The notes beneath the pieces were generated by a model that did not search any database, was not told the origin of the DNA, and saw only the letters and a list, made by a program, of their open reading frames with translations. This document shows, in pieces, positions 6,001 to 30,690 of a DNA stretch of 64,000 nt (the stretch's first letter is position 1; each line of letters begins with the position of its first letter). The translations under genes and the position numbers were made by a program. The DNA comes from Apostichopus japonicus (taxonomy: Eukaryota > Echinodermata > Holothuroidea > Aspidochirotida > Stichopodidae). The stretch spans positions 7,933,501 through 7,997,500 of the forward strand of contig NC_092563.1 in assembly GCF_037975245.1 (NCBI RefSeq), given 5' to 3'.

Positions 6001-9000
6001 TTTGTAGCGATCGTATATCAATTTAATAATTGACAATGCCATATTTGATCAATTATTCCCTGTTCAGTGTAATTCAGCTTACTTTCTTTGCTCTGTTAGA
6101 CTTTGCTCCATTACAGCCCTCGATTGTTCCAGATCACCAATCTTCTTAAACAGAGTCGTAATGGTTTCATCACTATTTGTCTGGGTATTGATCGATGAAT
6201 TCAGCTGAAAATTTAAAATTTTTAAAGAGAAAACAGAAGGAAGAAAGAAAGAGTCAAAATAACTAAAGTAGAAAATGAATTCTTTTTTCGGTTAGTTATT
6301 GTTTCTGTTTTATGGTTTTCTGTTTAATTATAAAATTAAGATTGTTAACTTGTAAAAACTCCTTCATCAATCCAATTTATGTAAGGAAACAGCTCTGAGC
6401 AACTCAAAACTACACAAAGTTCTCTATTGTAGCTATAGGATATGTCTTCTAGCTACTGACTCTCCATTCCAGCTGTTCAGTCTCTCATGTTATAATATCT
6501 CTTTACAGCTACTGTATTACAGCTATCTGATGTCTGTTGCAGCTATAGGTCAATATTGCATTTCTCTTATCTCCTTACAGCTTATCTCTTCTTTACAGCT
6601 ACTGCAATACAATTTCCAATACAGCTATAGGGTCTTTCTTCAGCTATAGGATAGTTATTGCAGCTATAGGATATAAATTGTAGCTATATGATAATTTTGT
6701 ATAGGATATAGATTGTAGCTATATGATAATTTTGTGGCTATAGAATATCAATTGTAGCATAATTTTGCAGCTATAGGATAGCTGTTCTAGCTTATGCTAG
6801 TTTTGCAGCTATAGGATAGCAATTGCAGCTAGAAGATATTAATTGTAGCTATAGGATAGTTTTGCAGCCATAGGATATCAATTGCAGCTATATGATAATT
6901 TTGTAGCTATAGGATAGATGTTGTAGCTATATGATAGGTTTGCAGCTATAGGATAGCTATATAGTCGTTTCATAGCTATCGAAAGCTTTTGTAGCTATAG
7001 GATAGTTTTGCAGCTATAAGATAGCTATTGCAGCTATATAATAGTTTTGTAGCTATAGGATAGATGTTGTAGCTATATGATAGGTTTGCAGCTATAGGAT
7101 AGCTATATAGTCGTTTCATAGCTATCGAAAGCTTTTGTAGCTATAAGATAGTTTTGCAGCTATAAGATAGCTATTGCAGCTATATAATAGTTTTGTAGCT
7201 ATAGGATAGCTGTTGTAGCTAATGAACGTTTTGCAGCTATATGATATCTATTGTAGCTACAGAAAACTTGTGTAGCTATATAGGACAGTTATTGCAGCTA
7301 AGGTATCTGTAGTGCAGCTAAAGTATATTATAGCTATTAGATGCAGCTACCATATCTATATTTCAACTATAGGGTTTCATTTGCATGATTCGCTACAGGA
7401 TCTGTAGTTACGTTGCTTGATCAAATGTGGCATATATCCTAATATCAGTACATAGAGTATATCCTGTTACAATCCCACATCATTACAATAACTAACACAA
7501 ATATGACACTCACCTGTGACATGAAGAATGGACAGGTAGTTTGATGTTGCCTGATATCAGCTAATGTCCCATGATGGGAACAACCTTCAAAACAAAGGAA
7601 AAAACATTATCACCAAAGACTAGCAATTGGAATTCAAGAAATTGGGTAATGTCTTGGGCAGAATTTTTTTCTTCAAATTTAAGCCCTCAAAAACCCCTAT
7701 CTATCCATAACTTGGGGTAAAACAGCTAGAAAAGATTTCAAAGTTTATCAAAATAAATAACACCAGTCTGTTCAAAAGGTCAAATAAGATGAGTTTTACA
7801 ACATGCCACTGCAGAAGTTTATGGTTCCCTACTGACAGAGTACTGAATTGCTTTAGTGTGGAAGGCCATCCTGTGAGCTAGGGACATAGCACATGTGACA
7901 ACATCGCCCTCCCCTCCACCCACCCTCTGGAACCCTTGAATGCACCGCATAATTAAATACGATTAGTATTAAACAAAGTAAACCACTTCAAGTAAAACTA
8001 TCTGTCAATTACTAACTCTTGCAAAAGCTTCAATCGATTCTGTTCTGATTTAAATCACAGCACCAATGATTATCATTTTATTAAACTTCTTCTTTGTCCT
8101 GTGGAGATGCATATATATATATATCTATATATATATATATATATCGACAAGCTCACCTTTATTAGGGCAGCTTACGAAACAGCAGGTGTATGACAAGTGA
8201 TCCGCCAGTTCGCCTTTCTTGAACTTTCCGCAGATCGGGCTATTTGGACATTCTATATCGTCAAACTGACAAACATGAGTAGCGGCTGATGCTATCGACA
8301 ATACCTCTGGACAACCATTTTGTACCACGACAGTGTCATTTCGAGAATTCAATCGCTTCATTCCATTCCTGCAATATATTCTCAGATCTTGAATCTGTGA
8401 AAGGATAGCCCTAAAAAACCAGGGGAGAAAATGGAATATTATAGCTGATTACATAAACCATCTCATAGTATTTCTGTTGAATACAAAACTAATGCGTCTT
8501 GGCATATAACCATGACTTTAGCTTCATCATGATGAAAATCTCTTCTGAGCGATGTGTTAAAAGCTAGAGTATCAATATTTCACAATTCGATGGACTATTT
8601 ATCAATGCATGAAATGTGCACAAGGATATTTTAATAGAACTGTATATTAAGGTGAGAAGGTGTGAAGTCCCAACAGCTATGTACGCCGCAGCTCTAACAT
8701 GCTTCATGCAACTATGTGCTGTACACCAGTGGTTCATGCAGTTGTGAGTCTTCTGTCATCAGAGGCGTAATAAATAATATCGGTTTTAGCCGAGACTGGT
8801 GGGGTTCACCTGTCAAGAACCATCGGTATTGCTGACATACTGTGATGGTTAGGTGTCAATTTGAGAAAAGGGGAAATCTGTTCTGTGATGTCGACGAATT
8901 CTGTCCCTGTATCTCTTCAATATGACCCATTTATAGTTATTGTTAATTGATCAATGTCATAGGCATAGGAGCCCAATTTGATTTGGGGGGGCTGTAATGA

Positions 9001-15709: not shown

Positions 15710-15900
15710 AGGCCGAGCTGCATTTCACTATGCTTACAAAAATTCACAAAAGGCGAAGAAGATTTCAAGAAAAAAAAGAAAGATGCCCCGAAGAGAGATA
15801 ACACTGAATCCACGCTGATCCAAACTTCTCAATGCCCATTCTCCAAATATGCTGAGAAATAACATTCCTTCCTCTATTGTCTCTATTGTTCATAAAATAA

Positions 15901-18529
15901 TTATTTTGGGACATAAAACTGATCGTCGTGCTCTCCTCCTAGTCTCGGTGGAGGCGGTGGAATTTTTCCTTCTATGGCCAGTTTTTCCTCTTCTGCTACC
16001 AGTTCCTTCCATCTCGCTGTCTCGTCTTGCAACCTCTTCTCCCGGCGAGCAAAGTATGTCGGGTATCTGGCTCGTTCTGCTGGATGCCAGTTATCCAAGA
16101 CCTTGAAAGAGGAGGAGGAAGATGAGGAGGAAGATGAGGAGGAAACAGGAGGTCATTGTCTGGATTCACATATATGCAATGTGTACAATTCAATGTGTGT
16201 TATAGTAGAAAAATATTTTCCCCTTTGCCCCAGTGACAAAAAGGTTACTCTGTGGGACTATAGCTCTGCAGAGGTATATATGTGGTTGTGTCCCTGTTTA
16301 CAGATGGATAGTTTCTTAAACGTAATCTCACACTATGATCCTCCAACAACACAAGATGTGTTAATAAATAAGCCATAATTTTCAACGTAGAATTTTTCTG
16401 TGCCAAACTCAACAGTCTCTAACTCTCTAATTAGGAGTAACTCACTGGTCTTGTACTATACATATTTCTTATTTAGAATGAGGAGTAACCAAGTATGTGT
16501 GAATATCAATTGGTTGGCCAGAATGTGGAAGACTTTGAATGCAAAGTAGAGTGATGTTTTAAGAAGATAACTCATAACTTGAATACTCAGGCTCTTGCAT
16601 TACAACCTGTGTTTTACCAAGCTCATACTTACCCATTCTGGTGATGGTATATTCCTCTCATATCTTGTTCCCCCAGATGAGTCAATAACTGGCAAAAGGA
16701 AGAAGAAAAATTTGAGGTTACATTTATTTTCCCTTTTTGACTGATAGAAATTTTAATAAGTGATCTTAACAATTGAAGCACTTACAAATATATGGCTGTG
16801 GATGCTGTCTCTCCCAAAATTCTTTTTCTCCTGCTTCAAGGCATCTAAGAGCAGCTTTCATATCCTTCTCATTTTTTTGTTCATCAAAACGTGCTCGCAG
16901 CAACACAGCCTGATACCTGAATTCGACTCTGAAAGGGAAAAAGAAATGTAACATAGTAAATGGTCAACAGTTTTTGAGAAGAGGTCATGAGCTTTCTCCA
17001 CAAACCTCTAGGTCATGGATATCCATCTCAATATTTTTTATTTAGTAAAAGATCATTTTATGAATCAAAATGCAGAACTCAAGCTATCTTCAGCCATAAG
17101 TGCACCATTGATAATTAAAAAAATTGCATATGACTTTCACAGCACTGGATACCTACTTTTCCATAAGTTCTGTTTAATCTACATTATTCTCCTACTGATG
17201 GGCAAGTTAGAAAATATTACTAAAATTAGATCTTCAGTTTAATGTGAATATGCATTGCATTTCCAACCAACACAAAATATAGCTTATAATATGGCATTTA
17301 TTGCAAGAACTTTCTTTACAATGTGTACTTCTGTTAGCAACATTTAACATTAGATAGCTAATGTAGCCTTACCCTGAGAAATTATTATTTCACTTCAGCT
17401 AAAACATGCTAAAATGATGAGGCTATGGGTAGGTGGGGGAAAGGGCTCTGGGGTATTACTAAAACGAATGACAATTGCGTTACACATAACGAATGACAAT
17501 ATGTTGTACACACTAAAAAATTGCGTTAACTAAAACGAATGACAGTGAATGACAGCACAGACATTTGTTCAACCGGATATCACAGTTCAGACTTCGTGGG
17601 TATATCAAAGCCACGCAAACGGAGTGGACGCGAAGTGGGTGGCTTACAGATCTAGTAAAGTACGGACAAGATACAAACGCACCTTATAGTAAGCGAAATT
17701 GTAAGTCTGATTTTAAAAAGTAAATTTAACGTCATTTTTCCGATATTAATTGTTAGAAACTAACAATACTATAATCTTGAAACGGCTTCAGTTATTTTTC
17801 TGTATAAATCTACAGAGGTAAATGTCAAAAGCACAGCACTCAAGCGCATTCTCACACAAAAACTTTCCCTGTGGTATCTATCTGTAAATTACACCAAAAC
17901 CCTGCAACCACGTAGCCTAACATGCCATTTTCCTCAAATCATTTTGCGCAGAAAACCAATAACCGCATTTACTCCACTCCGTTAATCATTCTACCTCCAC
18001 TCAACACTGCACTTCGTTGTCGTTCGTTGTCATTAGCTGTCATTCGCTGTCATTCGTGAATGACAATTAACCCTGTACAAAGTCAATTGTCATTCGGTCA
18101 TTCGATGTCATTCGTTTTAGCTCTGGATTAACCTTCAATCATATATATATGATCGGCCTATATAGGACGGTAAATACAATGTGGCCAGGCTCATGTTAAG
18201 CCAACTTTGGCTAGCACACAAATATGCATGTCAAATTCATTCATCGGTCTACTGTGTGTACCTAGCGGTTGGGCCCTTGCCTACTCTTCATTCAAAACTC
18301 AAATGGGCTTAGCAGTTTAGGCCTAAGCTAACTGACGGTAGGCTAGTAGTGTTAGAGTTACTGTTACTAATACTAGTGTAATTAGGCCTAACCTAGCTAA
18401 ACATTAAGTTTGGCAAATTTTAACGAGTCTCACTTACCTATCAACATACCAACATTGCAAGTGACGTACTGCCTTCTTGTACAACCTCAGGACGCGTTGT
18501 TGTTGTGTCAAAAGCGGACTGGCAGCCAT
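15901..18529 (-). CDS. NDUFB9: NADH dehydrogenase (complex I) 1 beta subcomplex subunit 9
   Basis: Four coding exons on the minus strand: 18529-18438, 16928-16786, 16688-16633 and 16101-15901 (163 residues; human is 179). Phases match at every junction. The protein starts [11 protein letters not shown] and carries the LYR-family motif near residues 14-23 ([12 protein letters not shown]). Then come the diagnostic blocks [35 protein letters not shown] and the joined [17 protein letters not shown], all as in NDUFB9/B22. It is a nuclear-encoded accessory subunit of the inner-membrane arm of complex I that binds acyl carrier protein through its LYR fold. The exon 4 acceptor has a long CTTCCTC tract. 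The C-terminus has a run of five prolines and ends YVPK. It is transcribed away from URI1. Exon 4, part of intron 3 and 190 bp downstream are duplicated at 19265-19725. Confidence 0.95.
17459..18120. mobile_element. Inverted-repeat element in NDUFB9 intron 1 with many CGAATGACA motifs
   Basis: The ends are 15-bp perfect inverted repeats (CTAAAACGAATGACA at 17459-17473; its complement ends at 18120). Further GAATGACA motifs fill the left 100 bp, and the reverse TGTCATTC fills the right 120 bp, giving repeated sub-terminal sites. The flanks CTCTGGGGTATTA (17446-17458) and CTCTGGATTA (18121-18130) look like a 10-bp target duplication with a 3-bp change. There is no coding capacity. It may be a MuDR-type element like the two 9-bp duplication elements nearby, but that is inference. 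Confidence 0.65.
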
Positions 18530-18677
18530 GTTTTCGTGCCAACCAGATACTAAATTGACAATTCTGTCTGTATCACTTTTGCTATATGTATTCAGCTCGC
18601 ATAGACCTGTGCGTGCTGCCTCTTCACGATCAAGTACAATACACTGAACTACAGTGCTATAGTACTGCTATACTCGG
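18530..18677. promoter_or_regulatory. Remaining NDUFB9 side of a probable NDUFB9/URI1 bidirectional promoter
   Basis: Only 148 bp separate the NDUFB9 start codon from the target duplication of the 4.4 kb transposon. Only 124 bp separate the other duplication copy from the URI1 start. Before insertion the two start codons were therefore about 280 bp apart, head to head, which is typical of a shared bidirectional promoter. No TATA box was seen. Confidence 0.55.
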
Positions 18678-18727
18678 TACAGAAAAACCGGTGTGAAGTT
18701 AGATACTTATTCCCCGTTCCTCGTTCG

Positions 18728-19267
18728 ACATTCGCGAATGAGTAACTACTACCTATTCAGTTACGTATTCGACGAAGTGATGATTTAGTGGTCAGTTTAA
18801 TTGGTCAAGCACTCTTTGCAGGCGAGGCAGAACGGGAAAATTATTGGGGGGGGGGGGGGCTAATATGTGGAGACTATCTAAGCGGAGCGCCACCATCGGT
18901 TGTCGCGGAGCGTACAAGAAAATTTTGGGTTTTTCAAACCCCCTCCCCCCCCAGATGGCCGGAAAAGGCACTTCCCGAGTGTTTTATGCTGCGAATACCT
19001 AGCCCTAAAACATGGGTCTCAAGCCTGCAATTTCTCAGATTGCACGTAAAAATCTGTAAAACTTTGTAATTTGTATATTCGATGGTGTTTTAAGAGAGTA
19101 GCTATTACTCGACGTGTACTCGCAAAGACGTTTTTGAGTGTAGTAAATTACTACTTGCAATTAAATGCAATAATTACAAGGGCGTCGGAAGCTATTTTTG
19201 ATTGGTGCGGTGGTTCAGACTTCAGAGTGTGGCCAACTATCATAATTGTCGGGGGACGTTTGGTAGG
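18728..19267 (+). repeat. Transposon internal segment, copy A
   Basis: It runs from inside the left terminal repeat (ACATTCGCGAATGAG) to GTTTGGTAGG. It is nearly identical to 19725-20267 except for G- and C-run lengths and isolated bases (for example GGAAAAGGCAC versus GGAAACGGCAC). It includes the hairpin motif GCGGAGCGCCACC at about 18878. Confidence 0.92.
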
Positions 19268-19725
19268 CCGAGCTGCATTTCACTATGCTTACAAAAATTC
19301 ACAAAAGGCGAAGAAGATTTCAAGAAAAAAAAGAAAGATGCCCCGAAGAGAGATAACACTGAATCCACGCTGATCCAAACTTCTCAATGCCCATTCTCCA
19401 AATATGCTGAGAAATAACATTCCTTCCTCTATTGTCTCTATTGTTCATAAAATAATTATTTTGGGACATAAAACTGATCGTCGTGCTCTCCTCCTAGTCT
19501 CGGTGGAGGCGGTGGAATTTTTCCTTCTATGGCCAGTTTTTCCTCTTCTGCTACCAGTTCCTTCCATCTCGCTGTCTCGTCTTGCAACCTCTTCTCCCGG
19601 CGAGCAAAGTATGTCGGGTATCTGGCTCGTTCTGCTGGATGCCAGTTATCCAAGACCTTGAAAGAGGAGGAGGAAGATGAGGAGGAAGATGAGGAGGAAA
19701 CAGGAGGTCATTGTCTGGATTCACA
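19265..19725 (-). pseudogene. NDUFB9 (fragment): Captured copy of NDUFB9 exon 4 with acceptor and 3' flank
   Basis: This block matches 15710-16170 with a constant offset of 3555 bp at both ends, so no indels; no mismatch was found on reading. It holds all of exon 4 (19656-19456 on minus, [10 protein letters not shown] to the stop), 69 bp of intron 3 with the pyrimidine tract and AG acceptor, and 191 bp after the exon. Exons 1-3 are absent, so it cannot encode NDUFB9. The left junction shares AGG with both parents and the right junction shares one A. The near-identity means the copy is young or kept alike by gene conversion. Confidence 0.93.
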
Positions 19726-20267
19726 CATTCGCGAATGAGTAACTACTACCTATTCAGTTACGTATTCGACGAAGTGATGATTTAGTGGTCAGTTTAATTG
19801 GTCAAGCACTCTTTGCAGGCGAGGCAGAACGGGAAAATTATTGGGGGGGGGGGGCTAATATGTGGAGACTATCTAAGCGGAGCGCCACCATCGGTTGTCG
19901 CGGAGCGTACAAGAAAATTTTGGGTTTTTCAAACCCCCTCCCCCCCCCCCCCAGATGGCCGGAAACGGCACTTCCCGAGTGTTTTATGCTGCGAATACCT
20001 AGCCCTAAAACATGGGTCTCAAGCCTGCAATTTCTCAGATTGCACGTAAAAATCTGTAAAACTTTGTAATTTGTATATTCGATGGTGTTTTAAGAGAGTA
20101 GCTATTACTCGACGTGTACTCGCAAAGACGTTTTTGAGTGTAGTAAATTACTACTTGCAATTAAATGCAATAATTACAAGGGCGTCGGAAGCTATTTTTG
20201 ATTGGTGCGGTGGTTCAGACTTCAGAGTGTGGCCAACTATCATAATTGTCGGGGGACGTTTGGTAGG
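19725..20267 (+). repeat. Transposon internal segment, copy A'
   Basis: Second copy of 18728-19267 at an offset of about 997 bp. It begins 41 bp inside the terminal repeat sequence, so the outer repeat end is missing, and continues at 20268 into sequence not seen in copy A. Placed directly after the NDUFB9 fragment, it looks like a return to element template after a copying excursion. Confidence 0.9.
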
Positions 20268-20561
20268 TCAAACTACGCTACGCGCCACCATGGTTGGCGC
20301 GTAGCGTAATGGAGATAACTTTGAAATTATGCCTCCCAGATTGCAGGAAATGGCACTTCCCGAGCTTGAAAATAAGACCCCGCCATTCCAGAGTAGTCAC
20401 ATTTAGCCTACTTGCCGTCATTATTATTGAAACTTATTGAAACATATACCTCCGAGATTTTTTTTCCCCATTTTTTAGTCCTACTTTTTTTTTTTCTTGC
20501 GTCGTGAATGTTGGTCCGGCGTTCGCCGGACCTGCCCGTACCGGCTCCGACGCCTATGAAT

Positions 20562-21595
20562 CACTGGCGGATCCAGGGCCTTTGTTTGGGAGGGGCCAAA
20601 GTGGCATTAGAGTGATATGGGGAGGGGTCTAAGGGGAGGGGGCTCCCCCTCCCCTTTGGAAAATTGTCTATTTCTGAATGCCCTCAGATGCAATTTGGTG
20701 CGACAAAAGTGTACAATGGTGATGTTAATTTACTTCTAAAAACAAAGTTTCCCAGGTGTAATTTTCTAAAATATTTGTAAAACAAAGTTGAGATCATCTT
20801 TCTCAAGAAATTTGATTTCTCATAGGTTATAAATTTCTTACAACCAGCCTGTAACTGCAAAATGGTGTTAAACTGTAAATCCTCATGCTCATACATTTAC
20901 ATAGCTCCCAACTCTTCTATTTCTGAATGCCCTCAAATGCTGGTCCATGCCACGAATCGCCGTCCTGGGGGAGGGGTATAAGGGGAGGGGGTGTCCCCCT
21001 CTCCTTTTGAATTTTTTTGGAATCCTGGTGATGCCTACATGTAAAATGGTGGCACTTAGAAAGGCTTTTGTCACCCAAAATTTTCTGAGAAATATGCATT
21101 TTTTGTGTGTAACATCAATAAATTGAATACTAGTTGATAATTCATTCTTTCCCGTGGCATGAAAATGTTCGCTGCTCGCCCCAATGAAAAGAAATATAGG
21201 CTAATTTGAGGTTCAAATGATGCTGTAAAGGAGGTTTTATACTCTATTATGCTAAATGCTAAAGAAATTATGGTTGCTAAGTCAAGATTTGATGCAATTT
21301 TTTTTATGTATACTTGACAATTACAATGCGGTTTTTTCGGACGCTTGTGCGGGTCAGCGGGTTTGGGTGTTAGAATGCGGGTCTAATTCCCGCGAATTGC
21401 GGGTCAGTTGGGAGCTCTGCATTTAATTTTAAACCAGAAAACGAAAAGGTTTAGACTAGTCTACCACTGCTATTCCTCTCGATTTTTTTAATTACCAATC
21501 ATATGATTTAGCGGATGTTCGGAAACACTTTTTGGCTCACCTTTGGGGGGGGGGGGGGGCATGGCCCCCCTTGCCCCCCCTTGGATTCGCCAGTG
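20562..21595. mobile_element. Possible hAT-like element nested in the 4.4 kb transposon
   Basis: The left end CACTGGCGGATCCAGGG and the inverted right end CACTGGCGAATCCAAGG match at 15 of 17 positions. The flanks CTATGAAT and CCCTGAAT agree at six of eight bases, which could be a worn 8-bp target duplication. The interior contains two related GC-skewed stretches (20620-20690 and 20960-20940 region) with CTATTTCTGAATGCCCTCA at 20670 and 20917. No transposase was recognised. Confidence 0.45.
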
Positions 21596-22130
21596 CCCTG
21601 AATTAAATAAATGTCATAAGAAAAAAAATAGAAAGCATTTCTTAATGTCAACAAATGGGTAATTCCAAAACCATGTGCAGTTGCCAACAAATTTCTATGA
21701 CCTAGCACTGTCATCATGTCATGAATGCATGTACCCTATACAGTACAGGCGAAATGCTAATATTGTGTTTTTGTTCGTTTAATAATTGATTGCGTTTAAA
21801 CATCAAGCCATGTTCCACGCCTTGCGTGTACTCGTAGTGTAAACGCAAATGTTGATGAGTGTAGCGTTTAGCTTATTACCCTCTTATTTAAAACACTAAT
21901 ATTCGATGAGGCATGATACAGACAATCAATTATCATATTTAATTATTACACTTATATAGTATACGTGTGCATCGGACAGATCGACAAGTATGCATTACAA
22001 AATGGGCAGATGCACGTTTCGGAGCCTTGGTAAATATTGGGGAGGCTTATCATGCATTTGCCCTCTCAACTTTTTCATTGGGGGGGGGGGCTGAGCCCCC
22101 CAAGCCCCCCCCCCTGTTCCGCCCCACTGA

Positions 22131-22929
22131 CTCTTTGGACCGGGCAAGACGCATTATGGTATCCTTCTACATTGTCATTAGAGTTCATATGACCCATTGG
22201 TTAGGTGGTCCAAGGCGTGCTGCATGGATAAGGGCCCAAAGCTTTTTCGTGGTCCCGTTACACTCATTGAAGAAGTAATGATTTAGTGGTCATTTAAATG
22301 GTCAAGCACTCTTTAGACCGGGCAAGACGCATCATGGTACTCTTCTACAATGTCCTTAGAGTTCATGTTAACTATCGGTTTGGTGATCCAAGGCGTGCTG
22401 CATGGATTAGGGCCCAAAGCTTTTTCGTGGTCCCGTTACACTCATTGAAGAAGTAATGATTTAGTGGTCATTTAAATTGGTCAAGCACTCTTTGGACCGG
22501 GCAAGACGCATTATCGTACCTTTCTACAATGTCTTTAGAGTTCATATGACCCATTGGTTGGGTGGTCCAAGGCGTGCTGGTTTTGATTAGGGCCCTAGTG
22601 TTTTTATTTCAGTTCCCGTTACATTCATCTAAAAAATTGTTGATTTAGTGGTCATTTTAATTGGTCAAGCACTCTTTGGACCGGGCAAGACGCATTATGG
22701 TATCCTTCTACAATGTTTTAAGAATTCATATGACCCATTGTTTGGGTGGTCCAAGGCGTGCTAGTCTTGATTAGGGCCTAAAGTGATTTTTTTCAGGTCC
22801 CGTTACATTAATTTAGGAACTGATGAACTAGTGGTCATTTTAGTTGGTCAAGAACTATTTGGACCGGGCAAGATGCATGATGGTACCCTTCTACATAGTC
22901 ATTAGAGTTCATATGACCCATAGATAAAC
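22131..22929 (+). repeat. ~180-bp tandem repeat, about 4.4 copies, inside the transposon
   Basis: Units start CTCTTTGGACCGGGCAAGACGC at about 22131, 22310, 22489, 22671 and 22853 (the last is partial). Each contains GGTCCAAGGCGTGCT, GTCCCGTTACA and GATTTAGTGGTCATTT. The last motif and GGTCAAGCACTCTTTG also occur once near the left end (about 18783-18818 and 19783-19818), so the repeat grew from an internal element sequence. Confidence 0.88.
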
Positions 22930-23224
22930 CTCTTTCCACGACCAAACGTTGAACATCTTGTAAGAAAGCTTTTGTCTTGCCAGAGGTGTTACGTCGATAC
23001 CATTGTCGAATACGTAACTGAATAGGTAGCAGTTACTCATTCGCGAATGTCGAACGAGGAACGGGGAATAAGTATCTAACTTCACACCGGTTACAGAAAA
23101 ATCCTTTTTATTTGTTCACCGCCCAGAATGAGGGACATCAAATGTGCTAGAAAACCAAACTTTGCTATCAGAGCCATGCAACTCGGACACGGAAAAATAA
23201 TGTTAGACTAGAGAAAGAGAAGGA

Positions 23225-26200
23225 ATGAGTTTATTGCCTAAAATGGATCAAGATTTGGGCAGGTTGAAAGAAGAACAACTTTTGGAACTTAGAAATACCG
23301 GAGTGCAGATCAGACAGTGGTAAATATTCAGCGGTCTTAACTAAATTCATGTGGAAAGCACAGTATTCAGGAGCCAAAGCCTATATATTATATAGGTATA
23401 GCATTAGAAGCTAGTTCCGCGAAATATTAGCATGGCATCCTTACGCAAGTTACAGTACAGTTACAGCTTAAAACATGGTGAATTACTCAGTGTTGATTTT
23501 ATTACGTTTTAGTAACACTACCAGACAGACAGGTGAACACTTTTATTCAACATTATTCTAGGATTGCAAGCATGTAATTAGTCCTCATAAGGTAAAATGA
23601 CATCAATAATGTTTTTGGTTACCTTCATTTCAGGGAGAAATTCAAAGAAGATTACAACCATTTGCAAGAAAAGCTTCAAGAATTACCAGACAAAGTCAGC
23701 TATGAAGTTATGGTGAGTATAACATGCATGTAGTAGAAATCAAACTGCTCTTGTATAGCCTGTCCCATAATTATATTTTGCAACAAACAAACAAGACATT
23801 AAAGTTAACAAGTTTGGCATTTATTCATTTTATGTGGAATAGTGCATTGTTTTACAATGTATTTTTACTAATTATACATTTTAATTGCACATTTGTATTA
23901 CAATGAGGTTAAATTATCATTTTAGGAAACAAAAGCAGGACTTCGTTTGTGTACCTGACCTCCATGTACGACGTAACATTATTGCGCAGTGCCATCATCA
24001 AAATAAAGTGAATAAACTAGCCTTTAATAGTTTATGCTCAATAAGGCAAGGCTCCAGGATGATGAACAATGGGTGTTGTTTCACATGATAGACAATTGTG
24101 GTAATTAAAATTCCCAGACCTCTTGTCAGGGATTTGATGGAATTGCTTCATTACATTTCCCCTATTGTGCTGTAATTTGCAGGTTCCGCTTGGACCTTTG
24201 GCATTCATGCCAGGTCAACTCGTACATACCAATGAAATTCTCGTCCTTCTTGGTGAGAATTGGTTTGTAGAGAAATCAGCCAAAGATGCCTGTGCAGTTA
24301 TAGACCGGAGGAAAAAATGTGAGTAATATTACTAGCTATGGTTACTTCATACCTTGAGAAAAACCAAGAAGTACAAATGGACAATGACTGCCATTCTTAA
24401 TGCTTGTTTTTATGCATCCTTAACTTCCCTTTGCATGTACTTTTCAAAGCAAATTTTGGTTAGACAGGAGTTTGAAAAAGGCCTGAGGAATAAACTTCAT
24501 CCTTAACAAGGGAATAAATGTCAATATATTGTTAGTATCTCAAGTTACTTTTTCCATGTGATCATTGCTGATAAAGAAGTTTCATTGTGAGAATGGAATA
24601 AAAGGAATTAATCACTCACTGATTAATTTTCACATAGTAGAAAAATCTATGTTTTATCAAATGCAAGGTTAGTTCGCATAATTATCGGTAGGTTTGGTTA
24701 CACTGTCATAAAAAAATATGTTACGTGTTCCTCAGCAATAACTTATCCTATGTCCAACTTATGTCATGTGAAAACTTAATGGCCATAGAGATTGAACTAT
24801 GACAAAATCTCTCCCACAGATTCAGTTTTTATTGTTGATAAAAAGTGGACTTTTATCTCATTTGGTTGTGTTTGTTTCACAACACATTCTGTATCTGGTA
24901 TTTGAACTAAATTCAAGAGTCTTTTATTATTGTATATAACTAAATTTCAGAACCTCCTCTGAACTATATTTGTGATTTCATGACATTAAAAGAAGAACCT
25001 TTGTAATAATTTTATAAATAATTAGCTTTTTTTACTGTAGCCTAATGGTGACGTAATGACTCACTGTGTCTCTTCGTTGTTATCAAATATGTATACATTG
25101 ACTCATCTCTCTACAGCAATAGCAGATACTATTAATAAGTTCAAAGAGCAGAAACAGTTACTTGAATCCCGGTTGGAGTTTACCGCTGACATTCAGAAGG
25201 AAGCATCAGGTACAGAAGGCATTGTTGACATCAGGGAAGAGTATGATCCAGAAAAGGAAGCCAAATGGAGAGGTAATTCTGTAATTAAAAATTGGGGATG
25301 GGGAGGTTAGGAATGGGGAGGTTGGGGAGGGACTCCCAAGTCATCAAAAGGATCATCGTAAGTTACATGGGCAAGTGACCACTGGGAGAGTTTTATCAAT
25401 CCGATTTTATCAAAAGTAGTCATCCACCAGATATTTTTCAGAAATTGTTCAGGAGTAAATTATTTAAAATAAGTTAATATGTTGTCAATGTCTGTGAACA
25501 AGAGGATTGCTAAGTGGTTATAATAGATTGGTCTCAAGGATTGGGTTCTTTTAGGATGGTAAATGTCAAGTTGATTGCAGGGGTGTATTAAAGTGACAGA
25601 TCGTATTATTATGAATTTCCAAATTGATATCCAGCTAGTTTGATGATTGACTTTCAATATGCTTTTTAGAGGGATAAATTTGACATGAACTCCAAGAACT
25701 GGATGTAATGTACTATAGTCAGTTGGGGTAAAAAAAAACAAGGGGGTAGTTGGGGTAAAAAAAAACAACCCCTTTTTATAGAAGGGGAATATTTAGCCAA
25801 AGTTCTAATTTATTTTGGGTGATAGTCGTATATGTCTAGTTTATTATTATATAATTTCTGGAACTCTATGTCACTTCGCTGCCAATCACCGCTTCATCGA
25901 ATCAAGCAAATGCTAAACTAGCAAAATTTGAAGTTTGTACCACATATCCGAAACTTTCTCCTGCATACCCAGCTTATATGATGTGGAGATTATTCCAGCA
26001 GTTACAGCATAGCAGTTAGTGATATTACACTCCCCTATGGTAGAATTACTCCAACTTCATTCACGCTTCATGGGGGGGGCCTTGTTTTTTTTTACCCCCA
26101 AAAAATGATGCGAATCGGGTAAAAAAAAACAAGTACTTTCCGGCTCCAATGTACTCCCTATTTTGCCCGAATGGATGAATTTTTCCATAATGTTGATTTT

Positions 26201-30035: not shown

Positions 30036-30690
30036 ATGATACAAGCTTCCATAAATTTGGGTGAAGCTACAGTAATTACAAACCTTGGTTGAAGCTACAG
30101 TTATTACAAAACTTGGGTGAAGCTGTAGTTATTACAAAAACTTGGGTGAAGCTATAGTAATGACAAAACTTGGGTGAAGCTATAGTAATTACAAAACTTA
30201 GGTGAAGCTACAGTAATTAAGAATTTTGGGTGAAGCTATAGTAATTAAGAAACTTGGGTGAAGCTATAGTACTTAAACTTGGGTGAAACTATAGTTATTA
30301 CAAAACTTGGATGAAACTATAGTAATAACAAACCTTGGGTGAAGCTATAGGAATGACAAAAACTTAGGTGAAGCTATAGTAATTACAATGCTATAGTAAT
30401 CACAAAACTTGGGTGAAACTATAGTAATTACAAAAACTTGGGTGAAGCTATAGGAATAACAAAACTTGGGTGAAGTTATAGTAATTACAAAACTTGGGTG
30501 AAGCTACAGTAATTAAGAAATTTGGGTGAAGCTATAGTAATTAAGAAACTTGGGTGAAGCTATAATAATTAAACTTGGGTGAAGCTATAGTAATTACAAA
30601 ACTTGGGTGAAGCTATAGTAATTACAAAACTTGGATGAAACTATAGTAATTACAAAACTTGGGTGAAGCTGTGGTAACTTGGGTGATGGT
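30036..30690. repeat. 28-bp minisatellite with GAAGCTATAGTAATTACAAA units
   Basis: About 22-24 units of roughly 28 bp, each a variant of GAAGCTATAGTAATTACAAA followed by ACTTGGGT. It lies between the convergent URI1 and cyclin E genes. It shares the AGCTATAG core with the array at 6420-7390, but period and flanks differ. Confidence 0.9.

Follow-up and report, generated by a model that had tools for sequence, protein, structure and literature searches.

How did the 3' end of the gene NDUFB9 come to lie inside a transposon that sits directly beside NDUFB9 itself? We examined this question in a 64,000-nucleotide stretch of the sea cucumber Apostichopus japonicus (NCBI RefSeq assembly GCF_037975245.1, contig NC_092563.1, positions 7,933,501 to 7,997,500 of the forward strand), here called the window and numbered from its first letter, in which a 4.4-kb element carries 461 bp of the gene. 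An earlier note on the window had attributed the capture to Mutator-type mobility, as in the gene-carrying Mutator-like elements (MULEs) of plants known as Pack-MULEs. Our analysis points instead to local template switching in place, after the element had inserted and during replication or break repair, as the probable origin of the composite. To the earlier description it adds a self-duplication flanking the insert, two nested repeats, and the recognition of the donor as the immediate neighbour gene.

The 3' end of a neighbouring gene inside a transposon

The element, its ends and the two NDUFB9 sequences are placed as follows.

18687–23091, no strand assigned: whole element, a non-autonomous foldback-family DNA transposon with an NDUFB9 copy, recognised by its terminal inverted repeats (TIRs), target site duplication (TSD) and genome-wide family
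18687–18773, forward: left TIR, 87 bp
23005–23091, reverse: right TIR, 87 bp, one mismatch to the left TIR
18678–18686, forward: left TSD TACAGAAAA, exact, 9 bp
23092–23100, forward: right TSD TACAGAAAA, exact, 9 bp
22130–22921, forward: subterminal satellite array, unit of about 184 bp, 4.4 copies
15710–16170, reverse: donor stretch within the resident NDUFB9, identical to the copy in the element
19265–19725, reverse (gene sense): captured NDUFB9 3' end, with the end of an intron, the last coding exon and the 3' untranslated region (UTR)

The 87-bp inverted ends with their single mismatch, the perfect 9-bp duplication and the undiverged NDUFB9 piece had all been reported in the earlier note, and each was borne out: bases 19265–19725 match 15710–16170 at 461 of 461 positions and in the same orientation. 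The donor is the immediate neighbour, 2.5 kb from the copy. Among solved structures, the last exon of this gene best matched chain 8esw_B9, the NDUFB9 subunit of complex I (E 3e-6), and the first coding exon best matched chain 9cwt_p, likewise NDUFB9 (E 6.7e-6); in Pfam the last exon had no match above the cut-off, SR-25 alone appearing below it. Judging from the splice motif, which sets the intron edge, the captured piece probably comprises about 68 bp of intron, then the last coding exon up to and including the stop codon, and finally 3' UTR. A genome search with the piece returned nine matches, of which two were near-full (the copy and its source) and seven were short and lay over a GAGGAG tract. 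The composite locus was found once across the 35 contigs.

A duplication of the element's left part flanks the insert

The element also contains two hAT-like miniature inverted-repeat transposable elements (MITEs), one within the other, and a duplication of its own left part.

18728–19267, forward: first copy of the duplicated segment, made up of the TIR from position 42, a 44-nt satellite stub and the left part of MITE 1
19725–20267, forward: second copy of the duplicated segment, with one mismatch in 538 aligned bases against the first and two changes in homopolymer-tract length
18819–22129, forward: hAT-like MITE 1, split by both the captured piece and MITE 2, with an 8-bp duplication ACTCTTTG at 18811–18818 and 22130–22137
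20562–21595, forward: hAT-like MITE 2, within MITE 1, flanked by CTATGAAT and CCCTGAAT, which are alike at 6 of 8 positions
20274–20308, no strand assigned: hairpin with a 14-bp stem, candidate stall site, 6 nt past the left breakpoint
18729–18740, no strand assigned: perfect palindrome CATTCGCGAATG, part of the TIR and adjoining the return breakpoint

Read from left to right, the element passes from its TIR into MITE 1 as far as 19267, through the 461 bp of NDUFB9, and restarts at its own position 42 (19725), from which 540 bp are repeated. The insert sits exactly between two copies of the element's left part, identical at 537 of 538 aligned bases. Donor and element have three bases in common at the left junction (AGG) and one at the right (A), and the breakpoints fall at element positions of about 580 and 42. 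Segment order, identities and junctions are observed directly, as are the nested insertions, and no second copy was found. The region around the hairpin, 20250–20330, folds as DNA at -20.7 kcal/mol (z -5.75), with none of 200 shuffles as good.

The nested insertions give the capture a relative date. Two further transposons are nested inside the window element, and the 8-bp duplication around MITE 1 has the length expected of a hAT-type insertion. A first look at the genome gave 2694 candidate places for MITE 1 and 4798 for MITE 2, of which 40 were scored in each case (locus L044 being among those of MITE 2), and in seven of seven fetched copies of MITE 1 (L037–L043) its parts A, C and D run contiguously without MITE 2. 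Because the duplicated segment includes the left part of MITE 1, the capture came later than the insertion of MITE 1.

Template switching in place as the probable origin

The arrangement at this locus would be explained by the following course. The start codon of NDUFB9 and the start of a divergent open reading frame would at first have stood 281 bp apart, and a non-autonomous foldback-like transposon would have landed between them, duplicating 9 bp of its target. The element, which lacks the left satellite array of its relatives, would have received MITE 1, and it also carries MITE 2. During replication or break repair, a growing strand would have stalled at the hairpin within MITE 1, jumped back by about 3.5 kb to the last exon of NDUFB9, paired there through the 3-bp match AGG, and copied 461 bp of the gene; a forward switch to TIR position 42, through the 1-bp match, would then have led to the recopying of 540 bp, so that insert and flanking duplication would stem from one event. 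Copying may alternatively have run from right to left, with the stall at the palindrome. Polymerase template switching, its direction, the stall site and the single event are all inferred.

Nothing indicates that the composite has moved since the capture. Switching in place fits better than cargo carried in from elsewhere, because the donor adjoins the element, the piece had no near-full match besides copy and source, and MITE 1 was in place before the capture. The proposal that capture was part of Mutator-type mobility is not supported: no second copy was found, the donor lies 2.5 kb off, the left junction was found only here and the element already held MITE 1. The locus is a very young and readable case of a transposon gaining host DNA, in which the donor, both junctions and the restart point are preserved. 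It suggests a role in capture for the hairpins of nested MITEs, one that can be tested.

A dispersed foldback family

The earlier note had proposed a genome search with the ends as a check for a family, and a family was found. Allowing up to two mismatches, a search with the initial 25 nt of the end gave 274 matches in the 671.6-Mb genome (133 forward and 141 reverse) against none for a reversed control, and a chance origin of the ends was rejected on this comparison. Among the 274 ends the first 100 were listed, and a separate end search scored 40 of 302 candidates. Twenty-three end pairs were assembled and 22 scored, the window's own included (L035, whose right end lacks an exact 12-mer, was left out, and eight more listed pairs stand outside the count): 15 have an exact 9-bp duplication, one has a duplication of 10 bp and six have none.

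In all 30 single-end loci (L007–L036), inverted satellite units of about 180 bp follow directly after the end, and in the complete members (L001, L002, L003, L004 with L005, L059 and L060) the arrays at the two ends are oppositely oriented. Members L002, L003 and L004 with L005 measure 7.2, 8.7 and 10.3 kb and have related interiors of about 3.2–3.5 kb. The family has tandem repeats within long inverted ends, as do foldback-type elements; in the window element, a reduced form, the right array is the only one kept. The junction between left TIR and satellite in this element has two genome matches (up to three mismatches), both inside the element itself.

Some further observations concern individual members. 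The interiors of L002, L003 and L004 fall into at least two related subtypes, with pieces about 83–86% alike and no long open frame. At L031/L048 and at L063/L064 (on contig C2), two members have a common duplication, GACATTCCT, and nearly equal flanks; a single repeat present in several copies, or a duplicated larger region, may underlie both sites. L020, L033 and L036 have a nearly identical outer flank (GCTCCTTA.CTTAAAC.TTG), which suggests insertion into a repeat or a later duplication.

The earlier note also looked to other members for different host inserts. Cargo was sought in the interiors of L007, L015 and L027, which matched no other among the 26 compared, and no clean host gene piece was seen in these three, a partial test in which the distal stretches of L015 and L027 may belong to flanking DNA. 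Repeats at other places match the interior of L007, two of the copies at 100%; that of L027 matches other places on contig C7 as well as a common repeat; and L015 has, beyond its satellite, two pieces that match one place on C17 at 85–86%. About 1,040 bp of L007 (927–1965) recur with 100% identity on C6 and C3, which suggests very recent movement of another repeat in this genome.

Transposase and superfamily

Coding capacity was small wherever members were examined. Stop-to-stop frames reached at most 167 amino acids (aa) in eight complete-member loci (L001–L005 and L058–L060) and 141 aa in 3-kb stretches of the 30 end loci; nine of the 13 frames of at least 80 aa in the interiors of L002–L004 were scanned, with no Pfam family above the cut-off. 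A partial search of the members revealed no MULE transposase in those examined, and the autonomous relative with a MULE-type transposase that the earlier note had envisaged did not appear among them.

PF10551 has 38 matches in the genome, one of them within 20 kb of a listed family end (a comparison by eye with the 40 scored of 302 candidates and the first 100 of the 274 matches). We rejected this match, on C11 and 12 kb from the end, as the family's transposase: it lies outside the recognised part of a left-truncated member, no terminal repeat was found in the stretch fetched beyond that member, and the MULE-like open frame that adjoins it (L045:4101–6977, C11), in which the PF10551 region lies, has DUF5575_C above the cut-off and ZSWIM1-3_helical just below it.

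The superfamily assignment of the earlier note rests on two lengths. Inverted ends of 87 bp and 9-bp duplications in most scored pairs are Mutator-type traits, MULE target duplications being 8–11 bp according to an overview of the superfamily (PMC6446971); the members examined did not supply the transposase that would go with them. The NDUFB9 piece lies between the ends of the element, which are putative MULE ends.

Weighing the explanations

Several points weigh against template switching in place and the assignments that surround it. The comparison is confined to one genome assembly, and assembly error is formally possible; the captured piece appears to be single-copy in this assembly, in which masked or gapped stretches could hide another. 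The AGG and A microhomologies are weak evidence by themselves, and the return breakpoint, at position 42, is close to the element's end, where published cases lean to internal breakpoints. Hairpin and palindrome were spotted as breakpoint features only after the junctions were known and are suggestive only: the 64-kb window has four comparable hairpin places, two of them within the element, and 54 perfect 12-bp palindromes. At the level of the family, some of the pairings behind the six pairs without a duplication may be wrong or rearranged; Mutator membership, which rests on the lengths of duplications and ends, is unproven, no transposase having been found; and a habit of capture may be family-wide, with three other interiors searched for it.

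The strongest competing explanation is transposition-linked gap repair, in which the element would have been excised from one sister chromatid and the repair, working off the other, would have wandered into the neighbouring gene and back. We regard this as possible, though we lean against it. It differs from template switching in place only in the cause of the break, so that the two overlap and our confidence in one is not to be added to that in the other. Intact ends and TSD, together with duplications in 16 of the 22 scored pairs, imply a family that was mobile not long ago, and the left arm, which has no satellite array, is like an incomplete repair product. The sequence, however, offers nothing that tells excision repair from switching during replication, the members examined yielded no transposase, and for most single-copy cases the animal survey prefers a break that involved no excision (PMC8277862).

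The intact ends and TSD and the unmutated cargo could also be read as those of a Pack-MULE that has only just taken up its cargo and has yet to transpose with it, with the MITE hairpin and the palindrome as built-in stall and restart points. This is a doubtful reading; if it were true, nested MITEs and foldback ends would promote gene capture in animals.

It is quite improbable that the NDUFB9 piece was taken up elsewhere and that the composite was then transposed to its present site as Pack-MULE cargo. The copy is indeed enclosed by intact ends and a TSD, but the donor is the next-door gene, and searches with the NDUFB9 piece and with the left junction of the element led to no other locus. 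A single copy is not decisive here, as 36% of rice Pack-MULEs (481 of 1337) are multicopy (cited in PMC8277862).

Less credible still is a history in two steps, a 540-bp tandem duplication and a later, separate insertion of NDUFB9 DNA at its junction: duplication and insert are both present, but the second event must have hit exactly the junction of the first, and both look young (one mismatch in 538 and none in 461). Least probable of all is a misjoining of repeats by the assembler. Near-identical repeats do lie close together, but one base and the lengths of two tracts distinguish the two segment copies, junction overlaps of 3 bp and 1 bp would probably not suffice for an assembler to make a join, and the locus was found once in 35 contigs.

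Genomic setting of the insertion

The element lies between the start codons of NDUFB9 and of a divergent open reading frame.

18452–18529, reverse: first coding exon of NDUFB9, with its ATG at 18529–18527, 157 bp left of the element
23225–23320, forward: start of a divergent open reading frame, 124 bp beyond the right TSD

With the element and one TSD copy subtracted, the start codons of NDUFB9 and the divergent frame would be 281 bp apart, and a 4.4-kb insertion now stands between them. The spacer between the two start codons, split by the element into 18530–18686 and 23101–23224, is possibly a shared promoter. Further right, an open frame at 25041–25310 has no Pfam match. Elsewhere in the window, at 6622–7300 and 30053–30677, are two short-tandem-repeat arrays whose units have the word AGCTATAG in common.

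Comparison with known systems

Tan et al. (2021; PMC8277862) described 370 Pack-TIRs, TIR transposons with captured DNA, in 100 animal genomes. Of the unique cases, 160 of 281 (56.9%) lie within 15 kb of the parent and 190 of 281 (67.6%) have microhomology at a breakpoint, with a median of 2 bp; in primates the element was present before the capture in 91 of 97. The window element has TIRs around the copied piece, a nearby parental copy, breakpoint microhomology and one copy in the genome, and it resembles the single-copy animal Pack-TIRs in being a TIR transposon that holds a piece of a nearby locus, joined through short microhomology and captured after insertion. It is unlike the published cases, mostly hAT and Tc/mariner (323 of 370), in its Mutator-like ends, and whereas in those a small gap separates the breakpoints, the insert here is bracketed by a 540-bp duplication of element sequence (PMC8277862).

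The view that such elements are rarely described in animals, put forward in the earlier note, holds for Pack-MULEs but not for captures at large, given the 370 published Pack-TIRs. The survey reports no Pack-MULE in its reference genomes, and its authors argue that Ssk-FB4 of Drosophila is one (PMC8277862); no other animal Pack-MULE is evident from the titles and abstract openings listed on animal Pack-MULEs and Pack-TIRs in the library searched, and a paper on arthropod MULEs mentions host gene capture in general terms (PMC13359780). Like Ssk-FB4, the window element is a foldback element with long ends, a family showing 9–10-bp duplications, and host gene sequence inside; Ssk-FB4, in contrast, holds a nearly whole gene and has transposed to several loci, whereas here there is a fragment for which no second copy was found (PMC8277862).

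Two further families are close in structure. The Tm1 Mutator/Foldback elements of root-knot nematodes likewise have foldback-like composite inverted ends, 9-bp duplications and MITE-like members, but include members with a putative Phantom-type transposase, of which the present family yielded none (PMC3169594). Tetris of Drosophila virilis, likened here by description only, has tandem repeats of about 220 bp inside inverted ends and is apparently non-autonomous; its abstract makes no mention of gene capture (PMC4079207). Template-switch capture has already been described in animals, so the NDUFB9 locus of A. japonicus is a clean new example and not a new phenomenon: one case that agrees with the published view of single-copy capture in animals as mostly local template switching after insertion.

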